Below, piece after piece: positions 4,609 through 32,482 of a stretch of 32,482 bases of DNA (within the stretch, counting starts at the first letter, position 1; each line of letters starts with the position of its first letter). Where the stretch lies: contig JAGBFB010000038.1 of assembly GCA_017936665.1 (NCBI GenBank), positions 1 to 32,482 of the forward strand, in the 5' to 3' direction. Both the position numbers and the translations under genes were made by a program. Origin of the DNA: Spirochaetaceae bacterium. Lineage in GTDB: Bacteria > Spirochaetota > Spirochaetia > Treponematales > Treponemataceae. The notes beneath the pieces were generated by a model. It was not told the origin of the DNA, did not search any database, and worked only from the letters and a program-made list of their open reading frames with translations.

Positions 4609-5430
4609 ATGAAAACACAAAGAATAATTGATGCTCATGTTCACATTGGGCGTTCACTAAATTTTGATATGAAAGAAACTGATGTTTTAGAAGCTATGAA
4701 AAAATACAACATCGAAAAAGTATTAGTTTCTAATTCCGAATCTGCCGAAGCTGACCACGAACAAAAACTATTGCCACAGGAATTACAAATTTCACAAGTA
4801 AAAAGTTTAGAAAAATCAATAAAATTTGCAAATGAAAATTCTGGCAAAGTTTATGTTGCTCCTTGGTTTAAACCAAAAACAGAAAAAATTTCTGATGAAC
4901 TTATAAATTTAATACAAAAAAATCTTGATGTTATTAAGGCTGTAAAATTTCATCCTTATCATTCTGCTTTAGATTTTGATGATTGTCTTATGGAACCATA
5001 TCTTGATTTAGCAGAACAATTTAATCTGCCTGTAATAACTCATACTGGAACTGGAGAAAATGATTGTCCTGAAAAAGTTTACAATATGGCAAAAAAGTTT
5101 CCAAAGGTAAATTTTATTATGGCTCACATGGGGTTAGGTTCTGATAATGTAATTGCAACTGAACTAATTGCAATATTACCAAATCTTTTTGGGGATACAG
5201 CTTGGGTTCCAATGGAAAGCACAATTAATTTTATAAATAAAATTGGTAGCCAAAAATTATTTTTTGGAACAGACTTGCCAATAGATGGAATTGATACTTA
5301 TCATCATAATCCTAGAGGAGAAAGAAGTTTATATCAAGACTATTTTGAAAAACTTCCAGATTTAATTGCACAAGAGGATTATGAAAATCTAATGTGGAAA
5401 AATGCTTTGAATTTTTTTAATTTAGATTGA
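4609..5430 (+). CDS. Metal-dependent amidohydrolase (Amidohydro_2 type)
   Basis: A 273-residue TIM-barrel hydrolase of the amidohydrolase superfamily. Visible metal and catalytic residues are His10 and His12 in DAHVHIG, His145 in ITHTGTGE, His173 in MAHMGLG and Asp222 in FFGTDLP. This pattern fits the PF04909 group (decarboxylases and hydrolases). Lys113 in AVKFHPY may be an extra ligand. The gene seems monocistronic and ends 1 nt from the convergent GuaA-like gene. The substrate is unknown. Confidence 0.85.
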   Translation: MKTQRIIDAHVHIGRSLNFDMKETDVLEAMKKYNIEKVLVSNSESAEADHEQKLLPQELQISQVKSLEKSIKFANENSGKVYVAPWFKPKTEKISDELINLIQKNLDVIKAVKFHPYHSALDFDDCLMEPYLDLAEQFNLPVITHTGTGENDCPEKVYNMAKKFPKVNFIMAHMGLGSDNVIATELIAILPNLFGDTAWVPMESTINFINKIGSQKLFFGTDLPIDGIDTYHHNPRGERSLYQDYFEKLPDLIAQEDYENLMWKNALNFFNLD

Positions 5431-30238: not shown

Positions 30239-32008
30239 TTATTTTACTGAATCAAGAACTTCTTTGATTTCTTTATCAATAGCAGCTGTTAATTTATCTG
30301 CTTCTTCTTTTGCTTTTGCAAGGTCAGAAGAATTTTCGATTACACAGTTGATGTAGAATTTAATCTTAGGTTCTGTTCCTGATGGACGAGCACTTACAAC
30401 TGTTCCTCCATCTAAGAAAAATTGAATTACATTGCTTTTTGGTAAATCAAGTTTTTCTTTTTTATCAGGATTTGCTGGATTATAAACAACACTTTCTCCT
30501 ACATCTCTAATTGAAAGTACAGTTTTTCCTCCAAGAGATTTTAATCCTTCTGTGCGGAGTTTTGTCATGATGTTTTTCATTGTTTGTCCGCCAGATGCTC
30601 CTGGGAAGTTTTGTGAAATTGCACTATCTTGGAAGTATCCATAAGTTGTGTAAAGTTCTTCAAGTCTTTGTAAAAGTGATTTCCCTTGTGTTCTCCAGTA
30701 AAGTGTCATTTCTGCACACATTGCAGCAGCAGAAACTCCGTCCTTATCCCGAACATCTGTTTCAACGTTATATCCGTAACTTTCTTCAAATCCGAAGATA
30801 TAGTTATTACTATTTGTTTTTTCAAATCCTGCCATTACATTTGCAATCCATTTGAAACCTGTTAAACATTCTACAAGTTTTACACCGTTTGCTGCACAAA
30901 TTTTATCTGCAAAAGGAGAAGTAACGATAGAACGAACGATTGCTGGATTTGCAGGCATTTTTCCAAGTTCTTTTCTTGAAACAATGATGTAATCTGTTAG
31001 CAATGCTCCCATTTGGTTTCCTGTGATAAGAACATATTTTCCATTTGCATCTGGAACAGCAATACCGAATCGGTCTGCGTCAGGGTCTGTTGCCATAACA
31101 ACATCAGCTTTTTCTTTTTCAGCTAATTCAACAGCCATTTTTAGTGCAGGTGCTTCTTCTGGATTAGGTTTTTCTACAGTTGGGAAGTTTCCGTCTGGGA
31201 TTCTTTGTTCTGGAACAGTAATTACTGTAAGTCCTAAATCACTTAGAACTTTTTCTACGTGCATTGCACCTGTTCCGTGAAGTGGTGTGTAAACGATTTT
31301 TGCTTCTGATGCTTTTGCTTTAATTACATCTGGTCTAAAAAGTTGAGCTTTACACATTTCCCAATATTTTTCATCAACTTCTTTATCAATCATGATGAGT
31401 TTGCCTGATGCAAGAGCTTCTTCTTTTGATATTGTTTTAATAGTAGAAACTGCATTTACTTCATCAATAATTCCTGTATCATGTGGTTCAATAACTTGAG
31501 CTCCGTCGTTCCAATATGCTTTATATCCGTTGTACTGAGGTGGATTGTGGGATGCTGTTACAACAACACCTGTATCGCAACCTAAAGTACGAATTGCAAA
31601 TGAAAGTTCTGGAGTAGGGCGTAAGCTTGTAAAAAGATAAGTTTTGAATCCGTTTGCAGCAAAAATTAATGCTGTTGCTTCTGCAAATACGTCAGAAAAA
31701 CGTCTTGAATCGTAAGCAATAACTGCTGATAATGTTCCTGCTTTTGCTTTTTCAGGGAAAGTTTTGATAAAATAGTTTGCAAGACCTTGTGTAGCGTGGT
31801 TAATCATCCATGTGTTCATACGATTTGTACCACCACCGATAATTCCTCTTAATCCACCTGTTCCAAATTCAAGATTTTGATAAAATCTGTCTTCAAGTTC
31901 AGCCATATTTTCGGCTTTAATAAGTTCTTCTACTTCTTGTCTAAAGTGTTGGTCTTTTTCTTCATTAATGTATTCTTTTGCACGTGCAAGAATTTCATTT
32001 TTATCCAT
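30239..32008 (-). CDS. Phosphoglucomutase/phosphomannomutase (alpha-D-phosphohexomutase)
   Basis: A 589-residue cytoplasmic enzyme interconverting hexose (or pentose) 1- and 6-phosphates. The phosphoserine loop TASHNPPQYNGYK has catalytic Ser153, the metal loop is DPDADR (308-313), the sugar-binding loop GFEESYGY is at ~400, and the phosphate-binding RPSGTEPKIKFY is near 550. The length fits the PgcA/PGM2-like class, in which phosphopentomutase activity is also known. AGGAG precedes the ATG. It is first of two genes with the exonuclease. Confidence 0.93.
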   Translation of the reverse strand: MDKNEILARAKEYINEEKDQHFRQEVEELIKAENMAELEDRFYQNLEFGTGGLRGIIGGGTNRMNTWMINHATQGLANYFIKTFPEKAKAGTLSAVIAYDSRRFSDVFAEATALIFAANGFKTYLFTSLRPTPELSFAIRTLGCDTGVVVTASHNPPQYNGYKAYWNDGAQVIEPHDTGIIDEVNAVSTIKTISKEEALASGKLIMIDKEVDEKYWEMCKAQLFRPDVIKAKASEAKIVYTPLHGTGAMHVEKVLSDLGLTVITVPEQRIPDGNFPTVEKPNPEEAPALKMAVELAEKEKADVVMATDPDADRFGIAVPDANGKYVLITGNQMGALLTDYIIVSRKELGKMPANPAIVRSIVTSPFADKICAANGVKLVECLTGFKWIANVMAGFEKTNSNNYIFGFEESYGYNVETDVRDKDGVSAAAMCAEMTLYWRTQGKSLLQRLEELYTTYGYFQDSAISQNFPGASGGQTMKNIMTKLRTEGLKSLGGKTVLSIRDVGESVVYNPANPDKKEKLDLPKSNVIQFFLDGGTVVSARPSGTEPKIKFYINCVIENSSDLAKAKEEADKLTAAIDKEIKEVLDSVK

Positions 32009-32249: not shown

Positions 32250-32398
32250 TACTTTTGAACATCCATATCCTTATTATTGAGAGAAAAATGCAATTTGAGT
32301 GAAATTTTAGCAAAAAAAATTCATTTTTTACAAGATTTAATAAAATCCTGTTATAAGTTTGTATAAAAAAACAACTAGAAAAATAAATAGATTTTTTA

Positions 32399-32427
32399 TT
32401 GCTAATATTATTGTATTGTGCTACAAT
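32399..32427 (+). promoter_or_regulatory. Sigma-70 promoter at the right edge, probably leaderless
   Basis: TTGCTA (32399-32404), 17 nt, TACAAT (32422-32427). The expected start, 7 nt on, is 32434, the A of an ATG that opens a frame to the window end. Confidence 0.5.
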
Positions 32428-32433
32428 ATATCT

Positions 32434-32482
32434 ATGGGAATGATGTTAAATAGGGCAATTCAATTCAATTCAATTCAATTCA
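32434..32482 (+). CDS. Partial open frame entering a pentanucleotide repeat
   Basis: ATG at 32434 opens sixteen codons (MGMMLNRAIQFNSIQF) that run off the window. From the eighth codon the sequence is CAATT repeated, which encodes a Gln-Phe-Asn-Ser-Ile cycle and has no stop in any forward frame. There is no ribosome site, but a promoter places the transcript start at the ATG. The product cannot be identified from this fragment, and the frame may not be a real gene. Confidence 0.35.
   Translation, partial: MGMMLNRAIQFNSIQF
32456..32482 (+). repeat. (CAATT)5 simple sequence repeat at the window edge
   Basis: Five full CAATT units plus CA, running into the end of the window, so the true copy number is unknown. 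A five-base unit shifts the reading frame each time one copy is gained or lost. Confidence 0.9.

Follow-up and report, generated by a model that had tools for sequence, protein, structure and literature searches.

A CAATT repeat tract in a candidate phase-variable leader of a retroelement-diversified treponeme lipoprotein gene

The opa genes of Neisseria carry CTCTT coding repeats inside the surface gene itself, and slippage of these pentanucleotides shifts the reading frame. In Streptococcus gallolyticus, GCAGA repeats are located in a leader open reading frame (ORF) of pil1 and pil3, where they decide whether the ribosomes get as far as a premature terminator and open it (PMC3894217, Danne et al. 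2014); this is the only repeat-in-leader attenuator found in the open-access literature. The present work deals with a (CAATT)n tract at the end of a 32,482-nucleotide (nt) stretch of treponeme DNA, hereafter the window, which represents the entire contig C28 of an assembly comprising 43 contigs and 2.58 Mb. It is considered probable that slippage of this tract makes a leader ORF phase-variable, and that this ORF controls a surface lipoprotein diversified by a diversity-generating retroelement (DGR).

Parts of this arrangement are found in other described systems. The hmw1A/hmw2A genes of Haemophilus influenzae have a heptamer tract between the promoter region and the adhesin gene, with 9-28 copies, a number near that of the treponeme heptamer tracts considered below; unlike in the reading proposed here, the transcript is controlled there in a graded manner by the total repeat number, not by the frame, and the excerpted text of that report (PMC2424069) describes no leader ORF. 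In Moraxella catarrhalis uspA1/uspA2 (cited in PMC4679880), a tandem repeat likewise lies between the promoter and the start codon of a surface protein, but its 1- and 4-nt units are untranslated, and no terminator logic is described in the excerpt of the source. The TvpA-type DGR of Treponema denticola (PMC4891356) is also a treponeme DGR with lipoprotein targets; it differs in that its accessory gene is situated between the template repeat (TR) and the reverse transcriptase (RT) gene, whereas in the present locus Avd is on the other side of TR and the target has a repeat-bearing leader. The paper on the T. denticola DGR mentions neither a promoter, nor tandem repeats, nor phase variation, and no paper joining DGR, phase variation, and Treponema was found in the open-access literature.

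The elements at the end of the window are the following:
32399..32404, + strand: -35 hexamer TTGCTA of the leader promoter (the same TTGCTA-17-(-10)-N6/7-ATG layout is present in the relative G047)
32422..32427, + strand: extended -10 hexamer TACAAT with TG upstream, aligned with the promoter of the genome's own lipoprotein paralog on contig C7
32434..32482, + strand: start of the leader ORF, beginning MGMMLNRAIQFNSIQF, with its ATG (32434-32436) at the predicted +1; it runs off the contig end
32456..32482, + strand: perfect (CAATT)5.4 tract cut by the contig end; putative continuation on contig C40, read reversed, AATTCAATTCAATTCAAGG

Thus, the original prediction of a TTGCTA-17-TACAAT promoter, an ATG coinciding with the expected start of transcription, and CAATT units from codon 8 proved correct to the nucleotide: the spacer is 17 nt, the ATG is 6 nt 3' of the -10 hexamer, and the tract begins in leader codon 8, the 5.4 units being the part visible before the contig end. 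Taken alone, the promoter is ordinary (five sites found vs. 3.3 expected). Its combination with an ATG 6-7 nt after the -10 hexamer and an ORF that extends into the tract without a stop occurred in 0 of 300 shuffles of the upstream sequence of the window. A match to the tract with up to two mismatches is not expected by chance (none in 100 shuffles); its observed length is 27 nt, as compared with 20 nt for the longest tract of period 5, 7, or 8 in simulated windows, and nowhere else in the 2.58-Mb genome does a tract reach four CAATT units.

When a shorter pattern was searched for in the whole genome, contig ends with a CAATT tract were found only in C28 and at the right end of C40, which, read reversed, opens with the continuation given above. 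Since no further contig end has the tract, the two ends are most likely adjacent in the genome, and the join, as judged from the sequence, is strongly suggested. The flank on the window side aligned with the promoter region of the C7 paralog with a score of 36 (best of 500 shuffles, 24.5), and this C7 lipoprotein gene is also matched by the opening codons of the lipoprotein on C40; hence a single leader seems to be split between the two ends. Outside the coding start, the C40-side flank aligned with the C7 leader no better than shuffles, so an exact empty site is not demonstrable. The C7 paralogous lipoprotein (L208, upstream of 4116, minus strand) possesses the same promoter with an ATG 6 nt after the -10 hexamer; its leader is a 7-codon ORF, MELILTR, and its start has neither a tract nor an adjacent terminator. 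Other candidates for the continuation were rejected. A stretch at C32:52618 comprises merely 2.6 units in the middle of a contig. A DUF4912 gene stands beside the phosphomannomutase/phosphoglucomutase-like gene (PMM) in G006 and has a look-alike start, MECSILNRA, but the genome under study has its own DUF4912 gene on C8 with an intact start. OadG/oadA was suggested by synteny with G010, G018, and G023, but the C40 sequence after the tract differs.

Exact 141-base overlaps were found at three pairs of contig ends (L133/L168, L138/L148, and L142/L164), which fits an assembler with k = 141. Such a k would span a fixed 27-nt tract, so the break hints that the tract in this genome may be longer than 27 nt or of mixed length.

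The following features were located on C40:
C40:49164-49206: terminator hairpin with a 20-bp stem and a T-rich tail (fold z = -5), between the tract and the lipoprotein gene
C40:45822-49115: lipoprotein gene with its own ribosome-binding site (RBS); 1097 amino acids, Lcl_C domains, DGR target
C40:45833-45954: variable repeat (VR), at the 3' end of the lipoprotein gene
C40:45298-45813: bAvd gene, after the lipoprotein gene
C40:44885-45006: TR, after bAvd
C40:43670-44836: RT gene, after TR

VR differs from TR at 22 of the 122 positions, and 21 of these fall on TR adenines. Together with the RT and Avd genes and a target of the CLec type, these adenine-specific substitutions identify the C40 locus, at the level of sequence, as an intact-looking DGR, of which the lipoprotein is the target. 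As a separate observation, a TTTAACTA-like direct repeat (2-3.5 copies) recurs just 3' of the DGR variable region and before avd, in several cases with a hairpin after it (L173 ~4780-4800, L250, L253, L258, L261, L209, and L252); it spans DGRs of several treponeme genera and of other families.

The frame logic of the joined leader is as follows. The leader ORF, of ~55-65 amino acids, is distinct from the lipoprotein gene and terminates upstream of its start. Depending on the repeat phase, it stops +6, +17, or +118 nt after the tract, and the hairpin starts at +43. In the two short phases, 34 or 23 nt separate the end of the stop codon from the hairpin; the third phase traverses the hairpin, and its stop lies beside the lipoprotein RBS, 13 nt short of the lipoprotein ATG. 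The probability of this joint pattern in shuffles, for this locus alone, is ~0.02. In none of the three phases does the frame of the tract coincide with that of the lipoprotein. Because the lipoprotein has a separate start with its own RBS after all leader stops, the tract is not inside the surface-protein gene, and a switch would therefore act by attenuation or coupling and not by truncation of the lipoprotein. This divides the initial proposal of a phase-variable tract within 5' coding sequence: a slippage-prone tract in a translated-looking ORF is indeed present at a surface-protein locus, and one phase of the three opens a longer frame, but the ORF is not the surface gene. Likewise, the long coding ORF looked for beyond the repeat exists in no frame, but one frame stays open until the lipoprotein gene is reached.

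In the mechanism that we infer, the transcript would begin at or next to the A of the ATG at 32434, and the ribosomes would load on the leader ORF there. Replication slippage in this strain would alter the count of the 5-nt units and, with it, the frame of the ribosomes leaving the tract. In one phase of the three (ON), the ribosomes would translate through the hairpin as far as the stop 13 nt ahead of the lipoprotein ATG, so that the hairpin is held open and the ribosomes are brought to the lipoprotein start. In the other two phases (OFF or low), they would stop short of the hairpin, which would then fold and end the transcript. Attenuation at the window locus and at a comparable locus in G128 may thus operate as in S. 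gallolyticus pil1/pil3; for related loci lacking an intrinsic terminator, translational coupling or polarity would be the simpler reading.

Similarly to pil1, the locus comprises a promoter, a leader ORF with pentanucleotide repeats (a unit that is not a multiple of three), a premature intrinsic terminator, and a gene for a surface structure, and one class of frames ends before the terminator while the others end within or beyond it. It differs in belonging to a spirochaete, in the unit (CAATT, not GCAGA), in the leader ATG at +1 without an RBS, in the DGR-diversified lipoprotein target, and in being known from sequence alone. The hairpin is crossed here in one phase of three, whereas expression of pil1 is high in two of the three (PMC3894217); furthermore, the leader ORFs of the treponeme relatives, unlike that of pil1, extend to the start of the gene (ATGA), and an intrinsic terminator is often lacking. 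Hence, the locus would work like pil1 and is not filed as a member of that type, because the leader ATG is not preceded by an RBS.

Two samples of related genomes were searched for homologous DGRs. Besides the window locus, 15 more loci with the same layout were found in other treponemes, including other genera and some complete genomes; their units (7- and 8-mers) are unrelated and never a multiple of three, and several of them are DGR targets. The leaderless-type start, i.e., an ATG 6-7 nt after a -10 hexamer (at least 5/6 matching) with a -35 hexamer and a frame open into the tract, was present in 8 of the 14 loci tested, as compared with 0.02 expected in total from shuffles. The promoter of G047, TTGCTA-17-TATAAT-7-ATG, is close to the TTGCTA-17-TACAAT-6-ATG of the window. 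In G128, TTGACA-17-TAAAAT is followed 7 nt on by an ATG, then (CTCACTGG)10, a strong terminator crossed in one phase of three, and a DGR lipoprotein. In most loci, the leader can be read in one phase without a stop as far as the lipoprotein start or its vicinity (Fisher's combined p ~7e-6, an approximate value because some loci are related). The open phase ends as an ATGA overlap in G085b, G127, and G240/G242 (in G085a, by the stop position) and 1 nt before the ATG in G016; in G047 and G077b, it runs in frame into the lipoprotein. The remaining phases mostly stop within ~25 nt, with the exceptions of G064a, G064b, G127, and G077b. As assembled, most loci are in a short phase; the long phase is seen in G071b and G085b.

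The tracts themselves recur and vary. In G071, the DGR lipoprotein is preceded by (CTCACAG)16 and a second VR-like lipoprotein by (CTCACAG)15; (CTCACAG)n is also found in G057, G064, G085, and G127, ahead of lipoprotein or secreted-protein genes. The variable copy number among related strains that the original prediction called for was encountered in the (TCATTGT) tracts before the DGR operon of G240 and G242, with 4.7 vs. 13.7 units in loci differing at two positions over 4852 bases; both are draft assemblies, in which tract copy numbers may be imperfect. A further check was provided by (GACACTC)n in the genus g15, which had surfaced only as a reversed control pattern: three of its four loci lie directly before lipoproteins and one before a signal-peptide-like remnant, and the proteins encoded after these tracts include Lcl_C (DGR-type) and BspA-type leucine-rich-repeat lipoproteins. 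As a background, one 8-mer array was found in 565 kb of other spirochaete loci. A TTTTTCTCA-like motif was observed to recur ~30-130 nt 3' of the tract in the leaders of G071, G085b, G064, G016, and G047.

The association of tracts with DGRs is not universal, since no perfect tract was detected at the DGR loci L211/L257, L250, L253-L256, L258, and L259, in several of which the upstream region of the target is incomplete. In the same-genus genomes G001/G002, no homologous DGR RT was found at the cut-off used, and no tract was evident in those related lipoprotein leaders that were inspected.

Several findings weigh against the proposed switch. No RBS was found upstream of the leader ATG in the predicted transcript, so leaderless initiation has to be assumed. 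The survey started out from DGR loci and two repeat units and is therefore not unbiased; nor are the related loci independent of one another. A second long phase exists in G064a/b and G077b, and the open frame alone is within chance in G128, G127, G242, and G077b. An obvious intrinsic terminator is missing from most heptamer loci, and attenuation may therefore be confined to the window, G128, G077a, and perhaps G127. Finally, in the g15, g20, and G127 loci (L302-L305, L210, and L243-L249), a second promoter-like element, TTGACA-N16/18-CATAAT/TACAAT, with conserved hexamers and a variable spacer sequence, abuts the heptamer tracts inside the leader ORF; if this is the real promoter, the heptamer tracts are untranslated.

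Since this element adjoins the heptamer tracts, the main rival explanation is a rheostat: the tract would belong to an untranslated 5' leader, and its length would tune promoter output or mRNA stability stepwise, irrespective of the frame, as in hmwA and uspA2. The untranslated, promoter-adjoining heptamer tract was in fact the initial view, and it was kept as a rival after the pattern of the upstream -10 hexamer and ATG emerged. Judging from the excerpts of the respective reports, the 7-bp repeats of hmwA give a graded output (PMC2424069) and the AGAT repeats of uspA2 sit in the 5' untranslated region (PMC4679880). However, a rheostat leaves unexplained the units that are not multiples of three, the generally single phase open to the gene start with its ATGA overlaps, and the ATG conserved 6-7 nt after the upstream -10 hexamer, and no promoter abuts the tract in the window. 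This explanation is considered unlikely.

An ordinary constitutive attenuator or small RNA, i.e., a short promoter-to-terminator RNA with the lipoprotein driven otherwise, would agree with the strong terminator between the promoter and the gene; all Rfam matches were far below gathering scores, so no structured RNA was recognized, which is also listed in its favor. Against it, no sense-strand promoter was found in the ~50 nt from the hairpin to the lipoprotein ATG, and the tract would be left unexplained, which makes this alternative highly improbable. Still somewhat more doubtful is a functionless contig-end repeat wrongly linked to C40: the join is indirect, contig ends are error-prone, and stretches of 2.6 units arise elsewhere by chance, but the tract exceeds chance expectation, both flanks match one paralogous lipoprotein locus, and the same layout recurs in other genera, in part in complete genomes. 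A classical contingency gene resembling opa, with the tract within the surface-protein coding sequence, would suit the ATG, the tract from codon 8 with its 5-nt frame shift, and the open phase in frame with the lipoprotein in G047 and G077b, but it shares with the present locus only the frame-shifting pentanucleotide, the tract lying here in a separate leader ORF all three phases of which stop before a lipoprotein ATG with its own RBS, so it is the least credible explanation and is refuted if the C28-C40 join is right.

Under the preferred reading, in which the leader ORF is phase-variable, one and the same surface protein is probably subject to both random on/off switching and targeted mutation. 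The chances appear even that the loci represent a family-wide class of treponeme switches, in which leaderless leader ORFs with fast-evolving 5-, 7-, or 8-nt tracts would, in one of their three phases, be coupled translationally to surface lipoproteins, both C-type-lectin targets of DGRs and leucine-rich-repeat proteins resembling BspA, superimposing stochastic ON/OFF expression and DGR hypermutation on one protein. If true, a single locus would unite phase variation and DGR mutagenesis as two separate routes to surface diversity, and treponemes would gain a general repeat-based expression switch. It also offers a direct test of why DGR targets may be expressed by only a part of the population, and a signature for the search of such switches elsewhere: a -10 hexamer, N6-7, ATG, a tract, and one phase open to the next start.

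The divergent neighbor of the leader lies outside the switch:
30239..32008, - strand: PMM, named from its sequence and homologues

The relatives of the organism, as judged by this gene, belong to Treponema. The intergenic region between PMM and the leader harbors, at ~32262-32333 of the window, a dispersed repeat of 55-70 nt with ~78% identical copies on C18, C3, C31, C12, and C41.
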